A DNA stretch of 35,389 nucleotides from Planctomycetota bacterium (GTDB taxonomy: Bacteria; Planctomycetota; Planctomycetia; Gemmatales; Gemmataceae), in the NCBI GenBank assembly GCA_016872605.1, contig VGZI01000048.1:1-35389 (forward strand), written 5' to 3'. Positions 5,143-35,280 of this stretch are shown in pieces. The notes under the pieces are model-generated. The model was not told the origin of the DNA and searched no databases. It was given only the letters and a program-made list of their open reading frames with translations. Position 1 is the first letter of the stretch; each line of letters opens with the position of its first letter. The translations under genes were made by a program, and so were the position numbers.

Positions 5143-8100
5143 TCAGCTTACGAATACCTCGCGAAACCCCTCCAGATGTTGCTGCAACAACTCCCGCAAC
5201 GCTTGTACCGGCATGTGATTGTCATGCTGGAAATGCAACACCAGTGCCTCGCCGTCGGCCGCCGGCTGCAGCGCAGGCTCGATGCCGAACTTCTCGATCT
5301 GATTGAGATTGAATTGCCCCTTCTTGCCCAGGAATCGACAGTGCAGGGCATCCGAGTCCTTGGTCCGCAGATAGGCCCAGGCGCGCGAAACGTCGGGAAC
5401 GGCGATGCTGATATGAGCGCGATTGTCCCAGGCGATTTCGATCTTTGGCTCGACCTTGCGTAGGACATCGAGCAACCGAGGGAGGATGGCACGATCCCAT
5501 TGCAGCTTGCGGCCCGGCGGAAAGCCCTTCTCGTTCAGATGCCATCGCTCGCCGTTGACCTTCCACGGCATCACGTCTTCAGGCTTGGTGTTCATGCGAT
5601 TTAGCGTTTTGTGAAACGACTCGACGGCCTTGCGCAGGAACTCGTCAAACGCGGGCGTGTCGATCTCGTCGAGCTTGTGCATCAACATCCATATCTCTTG
5701 CCAGGGGCCTTTGCGATTGGCGACGTGGACGCGCGGCTCGTTCGAATAGACCTGGATGCCGGGCGTGTCGTTGAGCGTGGGCAAGCCGAGCTTGCGGTTG
5801 AGTTCGGCTTGCTGAAAGGCGTTTTTGCCGACGCGGAAGATGAGCCGAGTGAGCCATTCCATGTTGGTGTGAGCGTGAAAGAACCAACCGAGCGATTTGG
5901 TCGGAGCGGCGATTTCGACAGTGGATTGATGCTTCCAGTTGGTCTCGGCGAAGTCGCCCAGGGCGTGGATTCTGTCGTCGATCCAGCTTAAGATTTCACC
6001 GTCCCAACGGCACGGTTTGCCGTCGTGCGAGAGACGATTTTTGGTATGCCAGGTTTTGCCGTCCGTCTGCCATGGCATGGCGGCATCTTTGCCGACTTGT
6101 TCGAGAGCGACATCTCCATCGCGGTTCTTCTCAGCGGCGAACGGGTCGTACTTCGGCCTCTCGGCGTACGGGCCGGCGTCGAGCATCTGGGCAATGAATC
6201 GCGCGGTGTGGGACTGGTTCGCCGCTTGCGGCTTCGCGCTCGCTCGGCGCCCGGCGAACGCCAAGCCGCAAGCGGCAGCCACCACCTCCGGCGTCCCTTC
6301 CACGACGACTCGGCCGCCGGCGTCGCCCGCTTCGGGCCCCATGTCGATGATCCAGTCCGCGGTCTTGATGACATCGAGGTTGTGCTCCACGACGATCACC
6401 GTGTTGCCGAGATCGACGAGACGATTGAGTACGTCGAGAAGTTTGCGTATGTCATCGAAGTGCAGCCCAGTGGTAGGCTCGTCGAGGACATACACGGTTT
6501 TTCCCGTATTTGGTCGAGATAACTCGGCTGCAAGCTTCACTCGCTGCGCTTCGCCGCCGGAGAGTGTCGGCGCGGGTTGACCGAGAGCCAAGTACTCTAG
6601 TCCGACGTCGGCGAGCGTCTGGAGGATCCGGCGAATCTTCGGGATGTTGCTGAACAACTCGAGCGCGTCGCCGATGCGCACGGCCAACACGTCGGCGATG
6701 CTCTTGCCCTTGTACAGAACAGCGAGCGTTTCCGGATTGTAGCGTCGGCCGTTGCAGATGTCGCACTCGACCCAGACGTCGGGCAGGAAGTGCATCTCAA
6801 TCTTCTTCTGGCCGTTGCCTTCGCACGCCTCGCATCGGCCGCCGGGCTTGTTGAAGCTGAATCGCTTGGGCTGCCAGCCGCGAACCCGCGATTCGGGGAG
6901 TTGCGCGAAGAGCTGACGAATGAGATCGAACACGCCGGTGTACGTTGCGGGATTGGAACTCGGCGAATTTCCCAGGGGATCCTGATCGACGTTGATGACC
7001 TTGTCGATGTTCTCAAGTCCACGGATCTCGTCGTGAGCGCCGACCGTGACGCCGGCGCGATGCAGCTTGCGAGCCAGGGCGCTATAGAGGATTTCATGCA
7101 CGAGCGACGACTTGCCAGAACCCGAGACGCCGGTGACGGCGATGAAGCATCCCAGCGGGAACGCGACGTCGATGTTCTTGAGGTTATTCTGACGAGCGCC
7201 TTTGACGATCAACGCCGCTTGCGGCGAAGCAGACTCTGCAGGGCCGCTAGCGGCCACGCGTCGATTCGTCGGCACCGGTATTGCCTTCTTGCCGCTCAAG
7301 TACTGTCCGGTCAACGAGGTTTTCGACTTCAGGACGACCTTGGGCGATCCCTGCGCGGTGATCTCGCCGCCGCGATCGCCGGCGCCGGGACCGAAGTCGA
7401 GAAGATAGTCTGCGGCCGAGATGACTTCGCGATCGTGTTCGACAAGTACCAACGTATTGCCCAAGTCGCGCAGGTTGTGAAGGGCGTCAAGCAGCCGGCG
7501 GTTGTCGCGCGGGTGCAAGCCGATCGTCGGCTCGTCGAGCACGTACAAGACGCCGGTCAGGCCGCTGCCGATTTGACTGGCGAGACGGATGCGCTGCGAT
7601 TCGCCGCCGGAAAGTGTCGGCGTTGATCGGCTCAACGTCACATAGTCCAAACCGACATCGATCAGAAACTTGACGCGATTCTGCACCTCGCGCAACACTT
7701 CGCCTGCGATTCTCCGCTGCTCTTTCGTGAGGTCGAGATTTTGAAAAAACGCGAAGGTTTGGCGGAGCGGCCAATCGCAGACTTGCGCAATCGTCTGGTC
7801 CTGAAATCGGCATGCGCTGGCGTAGTCCTTGAGGCGTGAGCCTCCGCAAGTGGAGCAGGGGACATCGCTAACGAGGTAATCGAGTCGTTGGCGGAAATAG
7901 AAACTGACTCGCGCCGCTTCCGTCAGAGCAGGCATGACACCCTTGTATTGAAACGTCTCCTGAGCACGCAGCGCAAGCAAGTGCTTTTGAGATCGCACTT
8001 GCTTGCGCTGCGTGCTCGTAGCCTGTGTGTTCGTGAGCGAGATCCACGCGTCGCCGGTGCCATAAAGAACTAGCCGCTGATGAGCCGGCTCGAGCTGCGA

Positions 8101-11100
8101 CCACGGCACGTCGAGCGAGAACCCACCGTGCCTGGCGATTGCCTCGGCGAACAGTGTGAACGGCTGATCGGCGTTCAGATCCGGCCAGGCGACGAGGGCG
8201 CCGGCGCGCAGCGTGCGCGACGGATCGCGAACCAACACGGCCGGGTTGGCGCCTTTTTGCGTGCCCAGGCCCTCGCACGATGCGCACCAGCCTAGCGGAC
8301 TGTTGAACGAAAAATGATGCGGATTGAGCGGCTCGAAACTGCGCCCGCAATTATCGCAGGCAAAATGCTGGCTGTAGCGATCGACCCTCCATTTTGTTTC
8401 GTCCGCGGCGTCATCGACGTGGGCGATGTGCATCACGCCTTTGCCCAAGTCGAGGGCAGCCTCCACGGCGTCGGCGAATCGGCCGCGCTGGCTCTTGCGA
8501 ACTATCACACGATCGATGATCACTTCAATCAGGTGCTTGCGGCGATGGTCGATTGAAGGGGGCGCATCGATGTTGAACGACGTGCCGTCCACACGCATCC
8601 GTACGAAGCCGCTCCGGCGAATTTCGTCGAACACCGCGTCGTACTTCTCTTGGCCGCGCCGTTCGATCGGCGCCATAAGGTACAACTTCGTTCCTTCAGG
8701 CAAGCTCAGGATCCACTCGATGATCTCATCGGACGTTTGCGTTCCGATCGGCAGCTGACATTTTGGGCAGTAGGGTTTGCCGAGCCGGGCAAAGAGGATA
8801 CGCAGATAGTCGTAGATTTCGGTGACAGTGCCGACCGTGGAGCGTGGGCTTTTGCTGGTCGTTTGTTGTTCGATGCTGATCGCCGGCGACAGGCCGCTCA
8901 CGTGCTCGACTTTCGGCTTCTGCACTTGGCCCAGGAATTGGCGAGCATAAGACGACAGCGATTCGACGTAGCGGCGCTGTCCTTCAGCGAAAATCGTGTC
9001 CATGGCCAGCGACGACTTGCCCGATCCGCTGGGGCCGCAGCAGACGGTCATGGCGTCGCGTGGCATTTCGACGGTGATGTTCTTGAGATTGTGCTGCTGA
9101 GCGCCCTGGACAATCAGGTGAGTGAGCGCTTCGTCGGCAACGCGTTTTCGTTTGGCCGCCGGCTTTTGGCCGGCGCGGGCGTTCGCGCTCGGCAATGGCG
9201 AGCGGCTAAACAAATCGGCCAGCGCTTGACCGGTAAAGGACTCGCGGCAACCTGCGACGCTTTCGGGCGTGCCGGTGCAGACGATGTGCCCGCCCCCCGC
9301 GCCGCCGTCGGGGCCCAGATCGATGATCCAATCGGCGGTCTTGATGACATCGAGGTTATGCTCGATGACGACGACCGTGTTGCCCGCGTCGGCGAAACCG
9401 TGCAAGACTTGCAAGAGCTTGCTGATGTCGTCGAAGTGCAGGCCCGTCGTCGGCTCGTCGAGAATGTACAGCGTTTTCCCCGTCGAACGCCGGCACAACT
9501 CGCGGGCCAACTTGATGCGCTGCGCCTCGCCGCCGGAAAGCGTAGGGGAGGGCTGTCCGAGCTTGATGTAGTCGAGGCCCACGTCGTGCAGCGTTTGCAG
9601 CATCTCGCGAACTTTCGGCACGTTCGTGAATAGCTCCAGCGCCTCTTGAACGTCCATCTCGAGCACGTCGTGAATGTTCTTCCCCTTGAAGCGAACTTGC
9701 AAAGTCTCGCGATTGAAACGATGCCCTTCGCACACGGGACAGGTCACCCAGACGTCGGCGAGAAAATCCATCTCCAGGCGGTTTGAGCCGTTGCCTTCGC
9801 ATGCCTCGCAGCGGCCGCCCGGCTTGTTGAAACTAAATCGCCCTGGCTTGTAGCCACGAATCTTCGCCTCCGGCATCAGAGCGAACAGGTCGCGTATCTG
9901 GTCGAAGGCTTTGATGTAGGTCGCCGGGTTCGAGCGCGGCGTGCGACCGATGGGCGACTGGTCAATGTCGATGATCTTGTCGATATGCTCAATGCCTTCC
10001 AGACGATCATGGGCGCCAATGAAATGAGGCATTTCATCAGATTCATCGTCCTGGTCGTCGATCCCCGGGGATCGCTGCGCTCGCCCCTGGGCTTCCTTGG
10101 CGGCTTCCAGCAAGATGTCATTGACGAGCGAGGACTTGCCCGAACCGCTGACGCCGGTGACGCAGACGAAGGTGCCGAGCGGGATCTCGACTGAAATGCT
10201 CTTGAGATTGTTATGCCGGGCGCCGACGATGCGAATAGTGCGATTCGACGGCTTTCGGCGTTGCTTCGGAATGGCGATGGCTTTTGCACTGTGCAGATAT
10301 TGTCCCGTGACGCTGTTTGGACTCGCCACAATGTCGTCGTAAGAACCGGCGGCGACGACGTGGCCGCCGCGCACGCCGGGACCGGGGCCGAAGTCAACGA
10401 TGTAGTCGGCCGCTCGCATTGTCTCTTCATCGTGCTCGACAACGAGGACGGTGTTGCCCATGTCGCGCAGTGTTTCGAGGCTGCGCAAGAGCCGATCATT
10501 GTCGCGCGGGTGCAGGCCGATAGACGGCTCGTCGAGGATATACAGGACGCCGACGAGGCCGGAGCCGATTTGGCCCGCCAGACGAATACGCTGGGCTTCT
10601 CCGCCGGAAAGGGTCGGGGCCGTGCGATCGAGCGAGAGATAGTGCAGTCCGACATTCAAAAGAAACTGAACTCGAGCCCGGATTTCCTTCAGGATTTCCA
10701 CGGCGATTTGACGCTGCACGGGTTCGAGGGAGGATTCCAAAGTGATGCCAGAGCGGAGCGCAAGCGACGGGTCCGCGGCCGAGCCCGTCGCTTGCGCTCC
10801 GGGCTGGTAGATGCCGACCCACACCGCCAACTCGCTGATCGGCATCGCCTCGGCTTCGATCATCGTCTTGCCCGCGACGCGGACGGCCCGGGCCTGCGCG
10901 TTCAAGCGGTGTCCCTGACAGGTCGGACAGCGCATCACGCGCATGTATTTTTCGAGCTGCAGCCGGCGCGGGCCGGCGGCGGTCTTCTTGAAGCTGCTCA
11001 AAAGTTGGGGGACAATGCCCTCCCATGTGCCGCCGTGCTTCCACACATTGCCGCCGCGCATCTTCCACTCGAAGGCGATGTGTTGGTTTCCCGTGCCGTG

Positions 11101-12213
11101 CAAGAGGACATGTTTCGCCTCGTCAGAAAGATCATTCCATGGCTTCTTGACATCGATGCCGAATGCCTTGGCAACGCCTTCGAAGATATGCTTGCGCCAA
11201 CGGCCCATGCCGCGCAGGGGGCCGACGATCGGAATTGCGCCGTCGTAAAAGCTCTTGCTTGAATCGGGAACGAGAAGATCGGGGTCGAACGAGTAGCGCG
11301 TGCCGAGTCCATCGCAATCGAGGCACATGCCATGCGGACTGTTGAAGCTGAAAAGCTGAGGCGAAGGCGGCTCGTAGGAACGATCGCAATGCGTACACGC
11401 ATAATGTGCCGACAGGATGATATCCTCGTCGGCTTGGGAGGGCGAGGCTCCCGCCGAGCCTGGGACTCGCGGCTCGGCAGGAGCCTCGCCCTCCCGGTCG
11501 ATTGCGACGATAATGTTGCCATCTGCCAGGACGAGCGCCTGCTCGACGGCCTCCGCCAGACGTATCCGCACCTTGGAATCTACCTTCAAGCGATCGACGA
11601 CAATCGCAATGTCGTGTTTGATGCGGCGATCCAGTTTGAGGTCATCGGTCAGCCGAACGATCTGCCCATCAACGCGCGCCCGAAGATAACCTCGTTTGAG
11701 CATGTCCTGAAAGAGATCCTTGTACTCGCCTTTCTGACCGCGCACAACCGGCGCGAGCACGAGGAACTTTGTCCCCTCGGGCAGCGCGAGAATACGTTGG
11801 AGGATCTGCTCGCGAGATTGCGCGGTGATGGGCCGATCGCACGCCGGACAGTGCCCTTGCCCGACACGGGCGTAGAGAACGCGCAAGTAGTCGTGAATCT
11901 CGGTGATCGTCCCGACGGTCGAGCGCGGGTTTTTGCCGGCCGCTTTTTGTTGAATGCTGATCGACGGCGACAGACCGGCGAGATAGTCGACGTCGGGCTT
12001 CTGTAGCTGCCCGAGAAACTGTCGAGCATAAGATGAGAGCGATTCGACGTAGCGCCGCTGCCCCTCGGCATAAAGCGTATCGAAAGCGAGCGACGATTTG
12101 CCCGACCCGCTCACGCCGGTGAACACAATGAGCTGATTGCGCGGAAGCTCGAGGTTGATGTTCTGCAGGTTATGTTCGCGGGCGCCGCGAATAATGATGT
12201 TTGTCGAGTCCAT
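5143..12213 (-). CDS. uvrA: Tandem-fused UvrA with a duplicated C-terminal extension
   Basis: Damage-recognition ATPase of nucleotide excision repair; loads UvrB on lesions. 2356 residues from the ATG at 12213 (TGAGAG upstream), roughly two and a half times a normal UvrA (~940). Two full UvrA units follow each other: about 1-1000 and 1030-1975. Walker A motifs lie near residues 33, 687, 1060 and 1695, and LSGGE signatures near 535, 892, 1533 and 1882. Each unit has both CxxC...CxxC zinc modules (for example [10 protein letters not shown]). All four ATPase modules look intact. Residues ~2003-2356 are an extra region with two related halves, each beginning MPWxxxGxxWH (about 2046 and 2214); I do not recognise it. 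At least seven palindromic repeats are translated in linkers and loops. A tandem UvrA is also known in chlamydiae. Transcribed divergently from the sigma-factor gene. Confidence 0.96.
6221..6276. repeat. Palindrome translated at the junction of UvrA unit 2 and the C-terminal extension
   Basis: Perfect 14-bp arms GCCGCTTGCGGCTT (6221-6234) and its complement (6263-6276), with further partial pairing inward. Encodes about residues 1980-1998 ([18 protein letters not shown]) in frame. Confidence 0.85.
7214..7254. repeat. Palindrome translated between the ATPase I and II halves of UvrA unit 2
   Basis: GCCGCTTGCGGC (7214-7225) pairs with GCCGCTAGCGGC (7243-7254), 11 of 12 matching; each arm is itself nearly palindromic. 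Encodes about residues 1654-1667 ([14 protein letters not shown]). Confidence 0.75.
7962..8017. repeat. 23-bp perfect inverted repeat translated inside UvrA unit 2
   Basis: Arms 7962-7984 and 7995-8017 are perfectly complementary over 23 bp, with a 10-nt loop. It encodes about residues 1400-1418 ([18 protein letters not shown]) just before the FQYKG segment of the signature domain, where ordinary UvrA has only a short loop. Confidence 0.92.
9155..9210. repeat. Compound palindrome translated between the two UvrA units
   Basis: Contains CCGCCGGC/GGCCGGCG and a CTCG...CGAG stem, with the wording GGCGAGCGGCTAAA found near other repeats here. Encodes about residues 1002-1020 ([16 protein letters not shown]), the linker between UvrA unit 1 and unit 2. 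Confidence 0.7.
10063..10091. repeat. CCCAGGGG-type palindrome translated inside UvrA unit 1
   Basis: Copy of the element at 2810, 2854 and 5110 (CCCCGGGG...CCCCTGGG). It encodes about residues 708-718 in the loop after the second Walker A motif, which is longer here than in ordinary UvrA. Confidence 0.8.
10755..10800. repeat. 17-bp perfect inverted repeat translated inside UvrA unit 1
   Basis: GGAGCGCAAGCGACGGG (10755-10771) and its exact complement (10784-10800) with a 12-nt loop. Encodes about residues 472-487 ([18 protein letters not shown]), in the segment that precedes the first LSGGE signature. Confidence 0.92.
11436..11495. repeat. 25-bp inverted repeat translated inside UvrA unit 1
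   Basis: Arms 11436-11460 and 11471-11495 match at 24 of 25 positions around a 10-nt loop. Encodes about residues 240-260 (GEAPAEP...GSAGASPS), directly before the first zinc module. The [15 protein letters not shown] wording is, from memory, a recurrent planctomycete coding repeat. Confidence 0.93.
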
Positions 12214-12387
12214 AGCTCTCAGCATCGCGCGTGGGTAAACGATTGTGCACGTATAGTCTCTTTACAAGATCTGAGGTGGAATCTCCAGAGGTCGCCGTAA
12301 GCGCAAATCATTAAATCAGTTACGTTTCCGTTTGCAAACCAAACAATCCCCCGCTATATCAAATGTAAGCGTTCGCCTGACGATTCT

Positions 12388-26101: not shown

Positions 26102-26629
26102 TTACACTTTGAGCGGCGGGTCGCCGGGCTTCCAGTTGCACGGGCACAGTTCATCCGACTGAATCGCATCGAGCGTACGAAGCACCTCCGGCACGCTGCG
26201 GCCCACCGGCAGCGGGTTGGCGCTTGCCCACTGGATGATGCCGTTCGGATCGACCAGAAAGGTCGCCCGCAGGCACGCATGCGCTTCCGGGTGCACGATG
26301 CCTAGATCGAAAGCAAGCCTGGCAGCATTGATCATCGGGTAGGGCAGATTCTTGAGGTCGGCGTGAGCGTTGCGCCAGGCTTGGTGGCTGAACTCGTTGT
26401 CCGTGCTGCCGGCGATCAACTCGCAATCGCGATCACGGAAGTCTTTGATCTTCTTGCCGAACTCGACAAGCTCGGTCGGACAGACGAACGTGAAATCCTT
26501 CGGGTAGAAGAAGTAACAAACCCACTTGTCTTTGTAAGTCTCGTTGGTGATCTTGCTGAATCCATCCTTGCCCAGGCCGACGCAGGCATCGACGGTGAAT
26601 TGTGGAAAACGGTCGCCGACAGTCAACAT
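26102..26629 (-). CDS. ahpC: Peroxiredoxin, AhpC type
   Basis: Reduces hydrogen peroxide and organic hydroperoxides in the cytoplasm. 175 residues from the ATG at 26629 (AAAGGGC upstream). The peroxidatic cysteine is Cys50 in FYPKDFTFVCPTE. The C-terminal ELCPCNWKPG holds two cysteines (162 and 164), the arrangement seen in the mycobacterial-type AhpC that uses more than one resolving cysteine. Arg and Thr of the active site are present. No signal peptide. It is transcribed divergently from tpx across 233 bp, so one regulator could control both; I see no clear OxyR or PerR box. No ahpD or ahpF is adjacent. Confidence 0.93.
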   Translation of the reverse strand: MLTVGDRFPQFTVDACVGLGKDGFSKITNETYKDKWVCYFFYPKDFTFVCPTELVEFGKKIKDFRDRDCELIAGSTDNEFSHQAWRNAHADLKNLPYPMINAARLAFDLGIVHPEAHACLRATFLVDPNGIIQWASANPLPVGRSVPEVLRTLDAIQSDELCPCNWKPGDPPLKV

Positions 26630-26717
26630 GGAAAAGCCCTTTCGTTGCAACACAGTGATGAAATCGTCTATGTCGAGTCATCATACGGCTGGGCGTGATT
26701 GCAGCAAGCGGTTGATT

Positions 26718-26776
26718 CAGAGCTTGACGCGCAAGTGAAGGAAGCGCGGACCTTCGCTTGCGCTTCAGGTTCTGGC
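26718..26776. repeat. TCAGAGCYTGACGCG-type palindromic element, copy 1
   Basis: Imperfect palindrome between ahpC and tpx: CGCAAGTGAAGG pairs with CCTTCGCTTGCG (11 of 12), with outer CAGAGCTTGA / TCAGGTTCTG. Copy 2 in the same orientation is at 27384-27440, on the other side of tpx. Confidence 0.8.
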
Positions 26777-26862
26777 GGGCCGTTTGACGCTCGGTTCGCT
26801 CATCCGTAAACTGAGACCAAACTGGTTCGGTTTCAGACAACGATTATCAAGGAGATTTGCAG

Positions 26863-27375
26863 ATGGCTCATCAAGTTACGTTTAAGGGGTCGCCCAAGGA
26901 CCTTCTCGGCCCGAAGCTCAAGGCCGGCGATTCTGCCCCCGATTTCGAATGCGTTTCGCAAAGTCTGGAAGTAATCACGCTCAAGTCCATGCCGCCGAAA
27001 GCGCGCTTGTTCAGCGTCGTTCCGTCGCTTGATACGCCGGTGTGCAGCATGCAGACCAAAAAGTTCGACGAATCGATTGCGAGCATGAAGGATCAGGTCG
27101 TTTGCTACACGGTCAGCCTCGATTTGCCGTTTGCGCAGAAGCGATTCTGCACTGCCGAGACGGTGTCGAATGTGCAGACGCTGTCAGACACGCGCAACCA
27201 GTCGTTCGGCAAGGCCTATGGCGTTCTCTTGCAAGGGTTGCCTCTGCCGTTGCTTGCTCGAGCGATTTTCGTGGTCGACAAGAACAACAAGATCACCTAC
27301 TGCGAGTACGTTTCCGAAGTGACGAATCATCCCGATTACGAGAAGGCCATCGCCGCCCTCAAGGCAGCGGTGTAG
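26863..27375 (+). CDS. tpx: Thiol peroxidase
   Basis: Atypical 2-Cys peroxiredoxin that reduces peroxides with thioredoxin. 170 residues from the ATG at 26863, with AAGGAG at 8-nt spacing. The peroxidatic cysteine is Cys61 in PSLDTPVCSMQT and the resolving cysteine Cys96 in AQKRFCTAE; both contexts are exact Tpx wording. The C-terminal half reads ARAIFVVDKNNKITYCEYVSEVTNHPDYE, as in the family. Cytoplasmic, no signal peptide. Divergent from ahpC, and followed after 81 bp by ribF on the same strand. A palindromic repeat lies on each side of the gene. Confidence 0.96.
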   Translation: MAHQVTFKGSPKDLLGPKLKAGDSAPDFECVSQSLEVITLKSMPPKARLFSVVPSLDTPVCSMQTKKFDESIASMKDQVVCYTVSLDLPFAQKRFCTAETVSNVQTLSDTRNQSFGKAYGVLLQGLPLPLLARAIFVVDKNNKITYCEYVSEVTNHPDYEKAIAALKAAV

Positions 27376-27383
27376 CGCCTGCT

Positions 27384-27440
27384 TCAGAGCCTGACGCGTT
27401 AGCGAAGGATTGCGGACTTCGCTCACGCTTCAGGCCCTGA
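27384..27440. repeat. TCAGAGCYTGACGCG-type palindromic element, copy 2
   Basis: Arms 27384-27407 and 27417-27440 match at 21 of 24 positions. Fills most of the tpx-ribF gap. Direct-orientation relative of 26718-26776. Confidence 0.85.
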
Positions 27441-27456
27441 CCACAATCCGTTTCCA

Positions 27457-28380
27457 ATGGCCATTTTCACCTACGCCCTCGGCGCCGCGATTCCCGATGC
27501 CTTGCGCGGCGGTGTGCTCACCATCGGCAACTTTGACGGCGTGCATCTGGGTCATCAAGCCCTGCTGGCCGAAGCATGCGGCCAAGCGAAGACGCTGCAA
27601 TGTTCGGCCATTGCTTGTACGTTTGACCCGTCCCCCGCACAACTCCTGCGCCCTGATCGTTTGCAGCCGCCACTGACAACGCTTGCTGATCGCGCTGCGC
27701 TGTTGCAGCACCATGGCGCCGATCATGTCATGGTGTTGCAGACATCCAGCGACTTTCTTCAGCTTACGGCTCGCGATTTCTTCGAACGAATCGTCGTCCA
27801 ACATCTGCGGACGCGAGCGATGGTCGAGGGGTTCAACTTCGGCTTCGGCCGAAACCGGGAAGGGACAATCGAAGTGCTGCGCAGGTTCTGCGACGAAAAG
27901 AAAGTACCGTTGACGTTGATTCCGCCGCGAGAAGTGTTGAGTCAACCTGTGTCCAGCAGCCGAGTGCGCAGCGAGTTGCTCGCTGGCAACGTGGACGTTG
28001 TCGCTGAATTGCTCGGGCGATCGTACCGCATTACCGGCATCGTGGGCGTTGGACAACGCCGTGGCGCGACCATAGGCTTTCCGACGGCGAACCTGCACGA
28101 CGTGCCGACCCTGCTTGCGGGGAATGGCGTCTATGCCGTTCGCGCTTTCGTGAATGACAAAGCCTGGCCCGCCGCCGCCAACGTCGGCCCCAATCCCACA
28201 TTCGGTGAAGCCGTACGCAAGGTCGAGGTGCACATCATCGGTTACAGCGGTGATTTGTACGATCAATCCGTTGCAGTCGAATTCGTCAAGAAGATTCGCG
28301 ACACCCGGCCCTTCGCCAGTGTCTCGGAACTTACCGCACAAATCCGCAACGATATCGCTGCCGCATGCAAGGTTCTATAA
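27457..28380 (+). CDS. ribF: Bifunctional riboflavin kinase / FAD synthetase
   Basis: Makes FMN from riboflavin and then FAD from FMN. 307 residues, normal length. The N-terminal nucleotidyltransferase has LTIGNFDGVHLGHQALL (residues ~21-37) and ends with the VSSSRVRSELLAGNVD segment. The C-terminal kinase has GVGQRRGATIGFPTANL and AANVGPNPTF, and ends in the helix of the flavokinase domain. The 81-bp gap upstream is mostly a palindromic repeat, so there is no room for an FMN riboswitch. It converges with the hydrolase gene 56 bp downstream. Confidence 0.96.
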   Translation: MAIFTYALGAAIPDALRGGVLTIGNFDGVHLGHQALLAEACGQAKTLQCSAIACTFDPSPAQLLRPDRLQPPLTTLADRAALLQHHGADHVMVLQTSSDFLQLTARDFFERIVVQHLRTRAMVEGFNFGFGRNREGTIEVLRRFCDEKKVPLTLIPPREVLSQPVSSSRVRSELLAGNVDVVAELLGRSYRITGIVGVGQRRGATIGFPTANLHDVPTLLAGNGVYAVRAFVNDKAWPAAANVGPNPTFGEAVRKVEVHIIGYSGDLYDQSVAVEFVKKIRDTRPFASVSELTAQIRNDIAAACKVL

Positions 28381-28393
28381 CCTCCACGTCCCA

Positions 28394-28408
28394 GACAGGC
28401 ATCCTGTC
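28394..28408. repeat. Small hairpin between convergent ribF and hydrolase genes
   Basis: GACAGG, loop cat, CCTGTC: a 6-bp perfect stem in the 56-bp convergent gap. It may slow transcription from either side, but has no T-run. Confidence 0.55.
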
Positions 28409-28436
28409 GCTCGCTCGGCGGTTTCGCGCCGTTGAA

Positions 28437-29303
28437 TCAATCCAGATGCCGGCGCAGAAAGCTGTGGACCTTTTCCGGGTAATCCGGGAAACGATACAAA
28501 TCCTGGTGTTTGGCGTCCGGAACGATCCAAAGTTCTTTCGGCTCTTTCGCCGCAGCGAATAGTCGGTGCGTGTCATCCGGGGACGTCTTGTCATCGCAAT
28601 CGCCGCTGATGACGAAGACTGGGCACTTCAGCATGGCGATATGATCGACGGGCCGAACGTCGTGAATGTTGAGACCCAGGCGATGCTCGGCGAATGGGAC
28701 CATGAGGCAAGCTCCCACGGCGCCGGGGACGCATAAGTAATGCCGCGTCCGGTGATCGACTGCGTGAACCATTTCGTCATAAACGCTCTCGCAGATGGCG
28801 CATCGTATTTCGGGCAGATGCTCCGCTGCAAAAGCGATTGTCGCGCCCCCTTGCGAGACGCCGAGGCAAGCAATTCGGTCATGGCCGTGTACTTTGAGCC
28901 ATGAGACGGCTGCGATGAGATCGTGTCGTTCGCGGAATCCGAAGGTGATGGCGTCGCCGGTGCTTTCGCCGCACGCGCGGGCGTCGTAGAGCAAGACGGA
29001 ATAGCCTTGCTCGCGGAAGTAGCGGGCCCGCGGCAGCATTTGCTTGCGACTGCCGCCGAAGCCATGCAGGAGGACGATGGCGGGCGCGTTCTTCTTGGCG
29101 GGAACGAACCACCCGTTGAGCGTTTGATGATCGGCCGTGCTAAACGTGACGGACTCGATAGGGAAAGGGAAATCGTCCGGCGGCGGACCGATGATGCTGG
29201 GGCGGGCGCGGGTCAGGCGCTGGGCGGCGATCCACGAACCGGCCACGAACACGACGCCCGCCGCCAGTGTGATGACGATCGTCCACCGGAGCACCCGCAT
29301 CAT
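28437..29303 (-). CDS. Membrane-anchored alpha/beta hydrolase
   Basis: Serine hydrolase of the alpha/beta fold; substrate unknown. 288 residues from the ATG at 29303 (GAGGA at 7 nt). One N-terminal membrane segment (~7-28, TIVITLAAGVVFVAGSWIAA) anchors it, with the catalytic domain probably outside the cytoplasm. Oxyanion region LLHGFGGSRKQ (~78-88), nucleophile Ser150 in GVSQGG, acid likely in SGDCDDKTSP, and catalytic His in DAKHQDLYRFP. It follows the Cys-less peroxiredoxin by 73 bp on the same strand, with a hairpin between, so co-transcription is possible. Confidence 0.88.
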   Translation of the reverse strand: MMRVLRWTIVITLAAGVVFVAGSWIAAQRLTRARPSIIGPPPDDFPFPIESVTFSTADHQTLNGWFVPAKKNAPAIVLLHGFGGSRKQMLPRARYFREQGYSVLLYDARACGESTGDAITFGFRERHDLIAAVSWLKVHGHDRIACLGVSQGGATIAFAAEHLPEIRCAICESVYDEMVHAVDHRTRHYLCVPGAVGACLMVPFAEHRLGLNIHDVRPVDHIAMLKCPVFVISGDCDDKTSPDDTHRLFAAAKEPKELWIVPDAKHQDLYRFPDYPEKVHSFLRRHLD

Positions 29304-29329
29304 GCCGATGTCCTCACAAAAAAACAGCG

Positions 29330-29368
29330 AGCCCGCAGCGGCTGCGACCCTTGCTTGCGCTGCGGGCT
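29330..29368. repeat. Hairpin between the Cys-less peroxiredoxin and the hydrolase
   Basis: AGCCCGCAGCG (29330-29340) and its exact complement (29358-29368), loop 17 nt that includes the TTGCTTGCG wording seen in other repeats here. Confidence 0.75.
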
Positions 29369-29376
29369 TGTTATCG

Positions 29377-30000
29377 CTATTTCGTATCGAGCTTCTTGAC
29401 GATCTCGGCCACGCGTTTGGCGTCGTCGCCGGCTTTGCCGACACGGTCCGCGGCGGCTAGCTTTCCGGTCTTGTCGATCACGAGCGTCACCCGCGCAATC
29501 GTCACGGCGCGGTCGGCGCTTCCTTTTTCGTTCTTGGCATCGATCGTCGGCGACTTGCCTCCTTTGGTCACCGGCACGCCGAATGCTTTGGCGATATCAC
29601 CCTTCTCATCGGAGACAAGCGTGAAGGGGAGCTTGTAGTACGACTTGAAAAGCTTGTGCGTCATTACCGCGTCTCCGCTTACACCGATAACAATGGCGCC
29701 GCTGAGTTTTTCCATCTCATCGCGGTATCCGAGAACTTGAGCAACGCTATCGCCGGTGCCGTCGGCGGGAAAAAAGAAAAGCACTACCGGCTTCTTGCCG
29801 ACCAAGTCGCTGGATTTGACGGGCTTTCCGCCTTCATCGACGCCTTCGAACGCCGGCATAGCTTCGCCCAGTTTCACTTTCAATGCCAGTGTCTGTTCGG
29901 GCTTTTTCTTGTCCTTACCCTTGGCGCTGACCGAAGTCGCGCCGGCAAATCCGACGCAAGCGATTACAGCCACAAGAACCCACCGCGTTAGGCACGCCAT
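29377..30000 (-). CDS. Secreted peroxiredoxin-fold protein lacking both catalytic cysteines
   Basis: Bcp-like thioredoxin-fold protein that cannot use the normal peroxiredoxin chemistry. 207 residues with a signal peptide (TRWVLVAVIACVGFAGATSVSA) and a Lys-rich start to the mature part. It aligns with the upstream gene: VVLFFFPADGTGDSVAQVLGYRD corresponds to VVLWFYPKALTGG-U-TAEACGFRD. The peroxidatic position is Ser85 and the resolving position Leu90. The rest of the fold is kept (IVIGVSGDAVMTHKLFKSYYKLPF, DEKGDIAKAFGVP). An insert of ~15 residues lies near 120-140. Start ATG at 30000 with GAGGAG at 7 nt; 73 bp downstream of the Sec-peroxiredoxin. Role may be structural or regulatory (inference). 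Confidence 0.86.
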   Translation of the reverse strand: MACLTRWVLVAVIACVGFAGATSVSAKGKDKKKPEQTLALKVKLGEAMPAFEGVDEGGKPVKSSDLVGKKPVVLFFFPADGTGDSVAQVLGYRDEMEKLSGAIVIGVSGDAVMTHKLFKSYYKLPFTLVSDEKGDIAKAFGVPVTKGGKSPTIDAKNEKGSADRAVTIARVTLVIDKTGKLAAADRVGKAGDDAKRVAEIVKKLDTK

Positions 30001-30073
30001 AGACTGCTCCTCTTAATGAAATGGGGGAAGCCGGCGATCGCTTCCCCGTTTGAACGATGACTCTCGGCGAGGC

Positions 30074-30661
30074 TCATTTCTTGAAGGTGCTTTTGACATA
30101 CTCCAGGACCTGTTCCGGATGGCCGCCCGCGTTGCCGACAGGGTTGTAAATCTTACTGACCGTCCCATCCTTGGCGATCACAAACGTCGCTCGAGCCGCC
30201 AGATTGTTCTTGGGATTGAGGACGCCATAGGCGGCGGCGAACTTCTTCTCGTTGTCAGCCAATAGCGGGAACGGAAGCTTCTCTTTTTCCGTGAACTTCT
30301 GCTGCAAGGCGAGAGTGTCGACGCTGATGCCGATGATCACCGTGTCGTGTTGAGCAAACTGCTCAAGGCGGTCGCGAAAACCGCAAGCCTCGGCCGTTCA
30401 GCCGCCGGTGAGTGCTTTGGGATAAAACCAGAGCACCACATTCTTTTTGCCCTTGAGATCGCTGATCTTCAACGTCTTGGCGTCTTTCTTGTCGGGGAAG
30501 ATCGTGCCGATCGACGTAGCCGGCAATTCGATTTCTGGCGACGGTTTGCCTTCTTGCACTTTTGCGCCTCCCGCCCAGATGGGACCTGCCATCCAGGCAA
30601 TGCCCGCGAGAACGGCAACGGCCCCCGCCGCGCACATTCTGCGGTTCCACAATGATCTCAT
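30074..30661 (-). CDS. Secreted Bcp-type peroxiredoxin, probable selenoprotein (in-frame UGA at the peroxidatic site)
   Basis: Predicted to reduce peroxides outside the cytoplasm. 195 residues if the TGA at 30398-30400 is read as selenocysteine (Sec88). Start ATG at 30661 with GAGGAG upstream; signal peptide ~1-31 (CAAGAVAVLAGIAWMAGPIWAGG). The active site reads FYPKALTGG-U-TAEACGFRD, where Bcp enzymes read FYPKxxTPGCTxEACGFRD, so UGA replaces exactly the peroxidatic Cys, and Cys93 is the resolving Cys five residues on. The frame continues without a break through IIGISVDTLALQQKF, LPFPLLADNEKKFAAAYGV and ATFVIAKDGTVSKIY to the stop. A bSECIS-like hairpin lies at 30366-30390. Alternative: a recent TGC-to-TGA nonsense mutation. 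The sel genes are not in the window. Confidence 0.85.
30366..30390 (-). promoter_or_regulatory. bSECIS-like hairpin after the in-frame UGA
   Basis: On the minus strand: AGGC + TTGCG, loop GTTTT, CGCGA, a CC bulge, GCCT. That gives a 9-bp stem (one U-G pair, two-base bulge). The apical loop starts with G at the 17th base after the UGA, matching the accepted bacterial SECIS spacing and the requirement for G early in the loop. Predicted by eye only. Confidence 0.65.
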
Positions 30662-30856
30662 GTCGTGCTCCTCGAAAAAAAATTCGCCGGGCGCGCCGAA
30701 CGTCGCCCGGCTCACGTTGGGTATTATTCCTGGACGCATTGCAGTTGGCAAGGACATCTCGCATTGATTTCACACATCGAGTAAGATAGGGGCGACAGTC
30801 CTCCACCCTCGCCTGAGGCAAGCGGCTAGATCAGAGTCAACCACGGAAAAGCAAGC

Positions 30857-31465
30857 ATGCTCGGACTCAAACTCAATCCACGCCAGTTTCTCGATCGTGT
30901 CGGCGATGAACTCGCCAAGATCGACCCTGCCCAGGTTCAAGCTCTCGCCGATGCTCTCTATCGCTGTTACGAATCACGAAATCTCGTCTTCGTCATCGGC
31001 AACGGCGGCAGCGGCTCGAACGCGTCCCACTTCTGCGAAGACCTCGGCAAGTGCACGCTTCGCCGTGAGGATTTCGACAACGACAAGAAAAAACGTTTGC
31101 GCATCCTGAGCCTCACCGACAATACGCCGTACATCCTCGCCTGGGCCAACGACGAAGGCTTTGACCGCGTCTTCGCCGAGCAACTCAAGAACCTGGCGAT
31201 GCCGGGGGATCTGCTCATCGCCATCAGCGGATCCGGCAACAGCCCGAATATTCTCAAAGCCGTCGATTGGGCCAACCGCAATGGCCTCGTCACTTTCGGC
31301 TGCACCGGCTTTTCCGGCGGCAAGCTCAAAGGCATGGCGCAATTGGGGCTGCATGTGCCGCTCGACGACATGGGCATCGTTGAGTCGATCCACCTGACGG
31401 CGTTCCACTGGGTCGTCGATAACCTGCACGCCCGCATCGGCCTGGGCATGAAAACCATAGAATGA
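30857..31465 (+). CDS. SIS-domain sugar-phosphate isomerase, GmhA-like
   Basis: Probable phosphoheptose (sedoheptulose-7-phosphate) isomerase or a close relative, first step toward heptose for LPS. 202 residues, usual for GmhA. SIS motifs: [16 protein letters not shown] (~45-59), [16 protein letters not shown] (~75-90), and [17 protein letters not shown] (~118-133). The C-terminal [14 protein letters not shown] carries the Glu and His of the isomerase site. I leave the symbol empty because other SIS isomerases share these motifs. Divergent from the peroxiredoxin pair; followed after 53 bp by a DUF1501 gene on the same strand. Weak GGAAAAG upstream of the ATG. Confidence 0.88.
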
Positions 31466-33792: not shown

Positions 33793-35280
33793 TACGACAG
33801 CGCTACTTGCATTGCAGCTGACATTGATGGTATTCTGTAACTCCTTAATTCACGGATGTTTGCAAGGAGTTATGGATGACCACCGATCAGATCCTTTCTT
33901 TGGGTCCGCAACTGGCGGATTTCCTCGGCGAGTTTGACGACTGCTTTGGGCGCTCCGAGCCGCGCGGCCACCTGGCCAGTTATGTCAAAGGCCAACTCTC
34001 CGATCTGCCGCGCAAGAGCGTGCAGCCCATCGCGGACTTCAACGGCACGCCGCGCCGGACGTTGCAAGAGTTCCTCGCCTGGTCGCCCTGGGAGCACACG
34101 CGACTACGCGATCGTGTTCAGCGGTTGGTCGTGCGCGATCACGCCGATCCCCGGGCCATCGGCATCATTGACGATTCGGGCCATCCCAAGTCTGGCAAGA
34201 AAACCGCCTGCGTGCAACGGCAATGGTGCGGCAACACCGGCAAGATCGATAACTGCGTCGTCAGCGTGCACCTCAGCTACGTCAGCTTCGATACGCGTTT
34301 CCGCACCATGCTCGACAGCACCCTGTTTCTTCCCGAGCACACCTGGAACGATCCGGCGCGACGCGAAGAAGCGGCCATTCCCGATGACGTTGTCTACCGA
34401 CCCAAGTACGAGATCGCCCTCGAACAACTCCGCAGCGCCTTGGCCAACGGTGTCCATTTCGCCTGGCTCACCTTCGACGAATGGTACAGCAGTTGTCCCG
34501 ACTTTTTGGCCGGGCTCGAAACCCTCAAGCAACGTTTCGTCGGCGAAGTCCGCTGCGACTTTCACGGTTGGCTGTGCGATCCACGCAGCCAAACACGTGC
34601 CGTCTACCGCGATGTCGAAACGCTGTGCCGGTACTCGCAAGCCATGATGTGCCAGCCCTGGCAGCGCGTCCACATCAAGGACACTGACAAAGGGCCGACG
34701 GTCTGGGAAGTCAAGCGTGCTCCGTTCTGGCTACAGCGCGATGGCCAAGTGCTCGGTCCTTATTGGCTCATCTACGCGCGTAATGTTCTCGATCCCAAAG
34801 AAGAAAAATACTTCCTTTGCAACGCCCAACCGGGCACGCCTCTGGAAGTCATCTTGCACGTCGCCTTTGCGCGCTGGCCGGTGGAGCGCACCCTGGAAGA
34901 CGAGAAGGACGAATTGGGCATGAGTCATTTCGAAGTTCGCCGCTACGACGCCATCATGAGACACTTCGCGGTGACGCAAGTGAGCCATTTGTTCCTGGCC
35001 CGCCAAACCAAGCGGCTGCGGGGGGAAAAATCCGGAGATCACCTTGTGCCAAGTCCGGACGGCGACAAATGCCTTGATCGATGCGCTGCCTCTGCCGCCT
35101 CGTCACCGCCTTGAGCGACTGGAACGAACCTCCAAGAAGCTGGTCGACGATCAACACAAGAATGCGCAGAGCCGACGCTCGCACACAAAAACCCGCCGAG
35201 CTCGTCTCGATAAACTTCAGATTAACCTTGCCGAACTCCCTTGCTGCGTACCAAGATAGAGATCAAGTAGCGCTGTCGTA
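33793..35280 (+). mobile_element. Complete IS701-family insertion sequence
   Basis: 1488 bp bounded by perfect 17-bp terminal inverted repeats: TACGACAGCGCTACTTG at 33793-33809 and its complement at 35264-35280. A 4-bp direct repeat CTAA flanks both ends (33789-33792 and 35281-35284), matching the YTAR targets reported for IS701-type elements. It contains one transposase gene that carries a frameshift near its 3' end. Confidence 0.95.
33876..35259 (+). pseudogene. IS701-family transposase, frameshifted near the C-terminus
   Basis: DDE transposase, ~461 residues if the frame is repaired. ATG at 33876 with AAGGAG upstream. Family landmarks: the N-terminal FGRSEPRGHLASYVKGQLSDL, then IGIIDDSGHPKSGKKTACVQ with the first catalytic Asp, YVSFDTRF..., WLTFDEWYSS with the second Asp, and the Glu region FARWPVERTLEDEKDELG. 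As read, the frame ends at 35114 with an unrelated tail. After the run GGGGGG-AAAAA at 35020-35030 the family sequence resumes one frame over (NPEITLCQVRTATNALIDAL...) and stops at 35259. One extra G in the run explains it. The catalytic domain is upstream of the shift, so activity is not excluded. Confidence 0.88.

Follow-up and report, generated by a model that had tools for sequence, protein, structure and literature searches.

A planctomycete Bcp/PrxQ-like peroxiredoxin gene with an in-frame UGA very probably read as selenocysteine

The locus and its genes

The window, that is, the whole stretch of 35,389 nucleotides analysed here (contig VGZI01000048.1 of assembly GCA_016872605.1, from a planctomycete of the family Gemmataceae), holds four genes of the peroxiredoxin family within 4.6 kb (26102-30661): a 2-Cys peroxiredoxin, a Tpx, a Cys-less peroxiredoxin and a Bcp/PrxQ-like peroxiredoxin with a TGA at its catalytic codon (Table 1). 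The last of these genes is encoded on the minus strand and read from 30661 to 30074; the preliminary description had the coordinates right and left the strand unstated, and frame 1 of the plus strand over the same interval encodes no peroxiredoxin. Its product begins with MRSLWNRR and ends with STFKK, followed by a TGA stop. The claims that a TGA occupies the place of the peroxidatic cysteine within one continuous frame, and that the resolving cysteine is kept at +5, were borne out: the TGA is codon 88, in the context FYPKALTGG-U-TAEACGFRD (U, selenocysteine, Sec), and the resolving residue is Cys93. Read with translation table 11, the gene stops at codon 87, so that it is likely to be annotated as truncated, as are its counterparts in the 23 further genomes in which the TGA was found.

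Table 1. Coordinates of the genes and sequence features of the window
Feature	Position	Strand	Remarks
Double-length UvrA	5143-12225	-	2360-residue frame; UvrA interaction and UvrA DNA-binding stretches, two of each
2-Cys peroxiredoxin	26102-26653		Within 5 kb of the TGA-bearing gene
Tpx	26857-27375		Within 5 kb of the TGA-bearing gene
Peroxiredoxin paralogue	29377-30000	-	73 nt downstream of the TGA-bearing gene, same strand; Pfam AhpC-TSA 86.5 bits; peroxidatic Cys replaced by Ser, resolving Cys by Leu
Hairpin between the TGA-bearing gene and the paralogue	30047-30024	-	Given no weight
Bcp/PrxQ-like peroxiredoxin, coding sequence	30074-30661	-	195 residues with TGA read as Sec; terminal stop TGA at 30076-30074
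Favoured SECIS hairpin (predicted)	30350-30366	-	UUGAGC[AGUUU]GCUCAA; loop starts 37 nt past UGA; -6.2 kcal/mol
Alternative SECIS hairpin (predicted)	30372-30386	-	UUGCG[GUUUU]CGCGA; loop starts 16 nt past UGA; -15.4 kcal/mol with outer pairs
Resolving Cys93 (Sec +5)	30383-30385	-	In the same model helix (86-97) as position 88
In-frame UGA, codon 88, predicted Sec	30398-30400	-	Column of the peroxidatic Cys; TGA in 24/48 homologues, TGC or TGT in 24/48
Putative signal peptide, residues 1-30	30572-30661	-	Basic start, then a hydrophobic stretch; pLDDT below 50 over residues 1-31
Shine-Dalgarno-like GAGGAG	30668-30673	-	6 nt 5' of the ATG; predicted from sequence
Promoter-like match ahead of the TGA-bearing gene	30751-30723	-	0.6 expected by chance; given no weight
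SIS-domain gene	30857-31465	+	Divergent; Pfam SIS_2
DDE_5 transposase-like gene	33876-35114	+	Close to the contig end

The domain is clearly that of a peroxiredoxin, with a Pfam AhpC-TSA (PF00578) score of 118.4 bits (E 2.4e-34) against a cut-off of 26. The top NCBIfam match is the Bcp/PrxQ thiol peroxidase model NF006960 at 97.8 bits, which is below the curated cut-off of 140, and the protein is thus Bcp-like and cannot be assigned to that equivalog. Its closest solved relative in a sequence search of the PDB is the Bcp structure 3drn (E 4.9e-37). One type of Bcp/PrxQ has its resolving cysteine five residues past the peroxidatic residue. An AlphaFold2 model, built from a 25-row alignment with Cys substituted for Sec, reached a mean pLDDT of 86.4 and a pTM of 0.79, with pLDDT of at least 90 in 147 of the 195 residues; confidence stays below 50 over residues 1-31 and is mostly good over the mature part, in which positions 88 and 93 both fall within helix 86-97.

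The N-terminus resembles a signal peptide. A simple hydropathy script found among residues 1-30 a 13-residue stretch with a mean hydropathy of 2.25 and a possible, A-x-A-like cleavage site, IWA-GG. Of 48 homologues, the window's own included, 47 have such a stretch, with a mean above 1.6, ahead of the mature part; the exception, G036, is under the threshold and has a twin-arginine-like start. In a contrast set of ten generic Bcp genes, of which eight had the length needed for scoring, a single one barely passes (1.63), and it does so on residues that precede the likely start. The pattern indicates that the peroxiredoxin of the window is probably exported.

The paralogue that lies next to it had been called Cys-less, and rightly, for its only cysteines are residues 3 and 15, within the putative signal peptide of that protein. 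At the catalytic site it reads TGDSVAQVL where relatives (e.g., that of G003) have TGGCTKQAC. A search among 95 genomes of the family gave 20 matches at E 1e-30, the paralogue itself included, and the peroxidatic cysteine is kept in all 19 others. The paralogue is closer to another group of peroxiredoxins (59% to G008) than to the TGA-bearing gene, and may be a non-catalytic protein of peroxiredoxin fold.

Parts of this neighborhood recur in relatives. The SIS-domain gene, 81-89% identical, stands divergently beside the TGA-bearing gene in G001, G002, G006 and G010. In G001, G002, G006 and G009 (loci L056, L057, L058 and L059) the TGA-bearing gene lies directly ahead of selB on the same strand, together with selA in G009, and the downstream slot held by selB in these four relatives is held by the second peroxiredoxin in the window. 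An operon of the peroxiredoxin and selB was considered and rejected: all four spacers contain a strong inverted repeat, T-rich afterwards in three, and then a TATAAT-like box, which in G001 stands about 60 nt ahead of the start of selB and in the other three closely precedes it. From these spacer sequences, the two genes are probably neighbors and not parts of one transcript.

The catalytic codon among homologues

A first search covered 41 genomes (that of the window and 40 relatives), 39 of which had peroxiredoxin matches at E 0.001. The set of 95 family genomes yielded a close homologue, at E 1e-28 or better, in 61; one internal TGA is present in 22 of these, no internal stop in 38, and a TAG in one (G071), where it lies 101 codons past a catalytic codon that is TGC. 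The catalytic codon was read in 48 genes, namely 45 of the 61 (16 being left unread) and, from beyond the family, the homologues of G028, G029 and G036. It is TGA in 24 of them, that of the window included, and a cysteine codon (TGC or TGT) in the other 24, and the frame stays open for 98 to 108 codons past the site in all 48.

The preliminary description had argued that a TGA would only rarely fall by chance on this very codon, and the comparison agrees with it. Each of the 24 TGA genes has exactly one internal stop, always TGA and always on the catalytic column; these counts come from the genome searches, the extracted genes having been ended at flanking stops and so providing no independent control. 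Of the 173 codons in the compared region of the window gene, 6 could become TGA by a single change. It had also been said that cysteine throughout the sister strains, combined with decay of this gene, would refute a selenoprotein. Four of the seven genomes of the same genus, that of the window included, have a close homologue, with TGA in all four, and G003, G004 and G005 of this genus gave no match at E 1e-28.

The distribution of the subfamily suggests that it is narrow in the sample of the phylum: among 392 genomes, E 1e-30 was reached by the window genome and by two others without an internal stop. It was found only in the family of the window, in one other family of its order and in one other of its class. 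A scan of named species had, among the best 80 loci listed, 75 with Cys and five with TGA, all planctomycete, and these five (G006, G009, G022, G100 and G088) add no new cases. Variants of the active site were seen as well. The gene of G036 (L025) reads UTIEAIGF and lacks the resolving cysteine at +5, and a UTVEC group (e.g., L173 of G077 and L172 of G085) has a cysteine at +4 in place of +5. Three distant peroxiredoxin-like matches (26-36% identity; G036:C87:26364-26840, G022:C184:1106-1636 and G010:C88:128294-128611) each contain one internal TGA and are possible further selenoproteins.

Selection acts on both sides of the codon. In the six same-genus pairs, the 65 codons ahead of the TGA gave dN 0.085-0.179 and dS 0.68-1.50, and those after it gave dN 0.124-0.195 and dS 0.50-1.95. 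This purifying selection runs counter to gene decay, the other half of that refuting condition.

Machinery for selenocysteine insertion

Absence of the decoding machinery had been named as another refuting finding, and a search for selA, selB, selD and a tRNA-Sec gene had been proposed; all four were found in the genome of the window. The scores were 579.8 bits for selA, 368.3 bits for selB (on another contig than the peroxiredoxin), 345.8 bits for selD and 72.9 bits for tRNA-Sec, whose anticodon is tca according to ARAGORN. The selD gene contains one in-frame TGA (YASCAGUAGKLPP) and is, at L054:3351-4280 on the minus strand, a second predicted selenoprotein of this genome (CAGUAGK).

The Sec trait is widespread in the family, with selA in 85 and selB in 76 of the 95 genomes, and is by itself no predictor of the TGA. 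Among the 24 TGA genomes, which are drafts of many contigs, selA was found in 22 (not in G022 and G091), selB in 22 (not in G060 and G091) and tRNA-Sec in 20 (not in G009, G022, G097 and G100), and each genome has at least one of the three. In G022, rated 95% complete, the TGA gene is present and searches for selA and tRNA-Sec found neither; both are present in its near-twin G074. The Sec machinery of planctomycetes, among them Gemmata obscuriglobus, has already been published (PMC4807772, in its accessible text).

A SECIS-like hairpin after the codon

Two candidate hairpins follow the UGA of the window gene (Table 1). Bacterial SECIS elements are described, in the accessible text of a recent review, by a loop of 3-9 nt opened by G and then G or U, a stem of 4-16 bp, a spacing of 16-37 nt and an energy of -7.5 kcal/mol or lower (PMC13188914). 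The hairpin that we favor agrees with these constraints in shape, loop and spacing, but its energy falls short of the -7.5 limit; its stability has a p of 0.01 against 300 synonymous-codon shuffles, and the predicted optimum fold of the window RNA is a different one. The alternative hairpin does not discriminate, as it overlaps the codons for CGFRD and similar ones occur in Cys homologues. In six loci searched with Rfam, no SECIS match reached the gathering score, and for the window only matches at chance level were obtained.

The comparison over the 48 genes favors a SECIS, with the reservation that these genes are related, so that the tests overstate their independence. Over the 54 nt after the codon, folding z-scores against synonymous-codon shuffles, which preserve the protein and its codon usage, averaged -1.56 in the 24 TGA genes versus 0.07 in the 24 Cys genes (Mann-Whitney p 1.6e-5). 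Of eight windows along the gene, only two gave an uncorrected p below 0.05, one beginning at the codon itself and the other 18 nt further on. An initial test for hairpins with a GU loop had been designed after the sequences were viewed, and we place weight on its repeat under the published shape constraints. In this repeat, a hairpin of -5 kcal/mol or lower was present in 18 of 24 TGA genes versus 3 of 24 Cys genes (Fisher p 1.3e-5), -5 being one of three thresholds tried (19 versus 9 at -3, and 17 versus 1 at -6), and 13 TGA genes versus a single Cys gene reached p 0.05 when set against synonymous shuffles of themselves. Under the same constraints, no hairpin of -3 kcal/mol or lower was found in five of the 24 TGA genes (G019, G077, G060, G091 and G089). 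A looser search that tolerated bulges did not separate the two sets (p 0.28), with -7.5 kcal/mol or lower in 14 of 24 genes of each.

Within the favored hairpin, a core of 13 nt, GAGCAGUUUGCUC, is identical in nine TGA genes from five genera (G000, G001, G002, G006, G009, G010, G022, G074 and G029), and this identity spans four third codon positions. The pair next outside the core is U-A in four genes, C-G in three, A-U in one and unpaired in one, and the pair beyond is unpaired in four of the nine. The covariation score of the whole helix was reached by 4 of 500 shuffles; a slide by one column gave a similar covariation (0.167 versus 0.176) but paired 31.5% of the cells versus 90.7%. For a second class of SECIS the covariation was weak, 102 of 500 shuffles scoring as high.

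Sister genes with Sec and Cys show how such hairpins may change. In G024, G099, G100 and G088 the hairpin after the TGA is UUUCAGC[GGUCUU]GCUGAAA; GGUCU is also the loop of E. coli fdhF. The corresponding genes of G102 and G103 have TGT, their loop codon reads GGG or GGA in place of GGU, still for glycine, and further hairpin positions differ. The hairpins of both still conform to the published loop pattern, and these two genes are among the three with Cys that passed above. The dN of G102 after the site is as low as 0.025 and 0.038 versus G099 and G024, respectively. In genus g22, G029 (TGA) has GAG CAG TTT GCT CAA where G028 (TGC) has GAA CAG TTT GCC CAG, for the same five residues, and the hairpin is gone, another one of -5.2 kcal/mol being found at 16 nt in G028. 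Six comparisons of sisters were made, of which one (G085/G087) has weak support in the tree; folding is better on the TGA side in five of them and worse in the sixth (G077/G060 versus G078). The Cys gene of G092 has almost the same hairpin as G091, its TGA sister. Across relatives, a SECIS-like hairpin tracks the TGA, and several Cys sisters have it in changed form or lack it, in part through synonymous changes.

How the UGA is read

We consider it highly probable that the product of this gene is a Bcp/PrxQ-type peroxiredoxin (COG1225, TxxU) with selenocysteine, probably exported, the UGA being read as Sec with the help of SelB, the UCA-anticodon tRNA-Sec and a SECIS. Four other readings have to be set against this one. 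The least improbable among them, itself very unlikely, is that the UGA is decoded in another way, by readthrough with tryptophan or some other residue or through a reassignment of UGA in the lineage. The identity of residue 88 is a prediction from the sequence, which leaves room for such decoding, but the gene has TGA as its own stop and the matched stretch of the TGA homologues holds no second internal TGA. Moreover, TGA exchanges with cysteine in all 48 genes, at the catalytic position, and the genome possesses a tRNA-Sec with a UCA anticodon along with the Sec enzymes. Harder still to accept is a pseudogene, in which a random nonsense mutation hit codon 88 and the remainder of the gene is decaying: one change from TGC or TGT to TGA would be sufficient for it and the adjoining paralogue did lose its own catalytic cysteine, but the same TGA is the sole internal stop in 24 of the 48 homologues read, purifying selection is similar after the TGA and before it, and the RNA that follows is more structured than coding needs in the TGA genes only.

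A pair of proteins, one a truncated N-terminal piece and the other a C-terminal piece started internally, deserves even less credit than a pseudogene. A shortage of Sec would let the UGA terminate translation, and some truncated product is to be expected from it; the break, however, would fall inside the catalytic helix 86-97 of a compact peroxiredoxin domain in the model, from which two useless pieces would be expected, and in 48 of 48 genes the frame continues for the 98 to 108 codons given above. Since the window is one contig of a 372-contig draft, an error of sequencing or assembly might be suspected, but with the same TGA read in 24 different genomes it is the least credible explanation of all. 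In favor of the reading of UGA as selenocysteine are the sharing of the TGA among relatives, the purifying selection on both of its sides, the presence of the Sec machinery and the hairpin that tracks the TGA.

With selenocysteine at the catalytic position, a plausible course of events can be drawn from the genes present and from the chemistry of Bcp/PrxQ. SelB, the UCA-anticodon tRNA-Sec and the hairpin just past the UGA would insert Sec at position 88, and the signal peptide suggested by the sequence would send the chain across the inner membrane. There, the selenolate of Sec88 may attack H2O2 or another hydroperoxide, the resulting selenenic acid would form a selenenylsulfide with Cys93, in line with the +5 spacing, and an exported thioredoxin-like protein might then reduce it.

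Probable exchange of selenocysteine and cysteine in the subfamily

The catalytic codon has changed repeatedly along the tree. Unrooted, the tree needs 11 changes of state, nine of which are forced by well-supported branches, and Sec and Cys appear to have been exchanged about 11 times in this planctomycete subfamily with putative signal peptides. The direction of these changes depends on the costs given to them. With Cys Bcp genes as the root, parsimony counts four gains and seven losses of Sec at equal costs, one gain or none if gains are costlier, and 13 gains if losses are costlier; a single ancient origin of Sec is possible without being established.

We lean, with moderate confidence, towards a broader proposal, that the exported PrxQ of Gemmataceae and their relatives is a natural hotspot of Sec/Cys exchange. 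Most of the genomes concerned retain the Sec machinery; the catalytic residue would have changed about 11 times within this one group, and SECIS hairpins, located at several different sites, would arise or decay with it, in part by synonymous changes. If so, the subfamily would offer a ready-made series for studying the value of Sec to an extracytoplasmic peroxidase and the gain and loss of SECIS elements. Conversion between Sec and Cys with SECIS remnants was described across bacteria in 2006 (PMC1794560, in its accessible text), and the planctomycete subfamily would be a dense example of it. Close Sec/Cys sisters, such as G102 versus G099 or G024 (dN 0.025-0.056), offer a test of two old questions, namely why certain lineages bear the cost of Sec and in what way a SECIS emerges inside a coding sequence.

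Comparison with known systems

The preliminary description spoke of a probable new selenoprotein, which holds for the gene but not for its family, as COG1225 (Bcp) with a TxxU motif is already listed (PMC9312934 and PMC1088965, in their accessible text). This family is documented in the literature: 43 genes of peroxiredoxin COG1225 TxxU in the Sargasso Sea set (PMC1088965), 12 Sec-peroxiredoxins in a table of 2006 (PMC1794560), 91 in 78 organisms in 2016 (PMC5029168), the COG1225 (Bcp) TxxU entry in a review of 2022 (PMC9312934) and the motif PxxxTxxU in a review of 2026 (PMC13188914). A word search of PMC12013277 gave nothing on peroxiredoxins, and PMC8038987 had no bearing on the gene. In the accessible text of two recent reviews (PMC9312934 and PMC13188914), the words signal peptide, secreted and exported do not occur and periplasm occurs only in another context. 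Across the open-licence literature, supplementary tables aside, we found no description of an exported planctomycete Sec-peroxiredoxin. The gene of the window is very probably functional as a selenoprotein gene, a new one within a known family, and the planctomycete subfamily to which it belongs is probably exported. If real, it would provide an extracytoplasmic selenium enzyme in planctomycetes known mostly from environmental genomes.

The protein shares with Bcp/PrxQ of NF006960 (PRK09437) the position of the catalytic and resolving residues, five apart and on one helix; it differs in its predicted Sec in place of Cys, its putative signal peptide and its score below the cut-off. PrxU (NF040737), a model linked to the Sec-peroxiredoxin of Eubacterium acidaminophilum, has Sec at the peroxidatic position as well, and the window protein scored 51.1 bits with this model against a cut-off of 270. 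The E. acidaminophilum protein is cited in the reference lists of the reviews. The thiol peroxidase Prx-SUH and the Prx-like UxxC selenoproteins are also listed as Sec-containing Prx-like proteins (PMC13188914, in its accessible text), but their Sec motifs, CxxU and UxxC, differ, and the Prx-SUH model (NF045827) gave 31.2 bits against a cut-off of 298. With the COG1225 Sec-peroxiredoxins, the window protein has in common the AhpC/TSA domain, the segment PKALTGGU, which fits PxxxTxxU, the UGA in place of the peroxidatic Cys codon, a SECIS-like hairpin just downstream and widespread Cys homologues. It may differ from them, as judged from the wording of the reviews in their accessible text, by the signal-peptide-like start of its subfamily.
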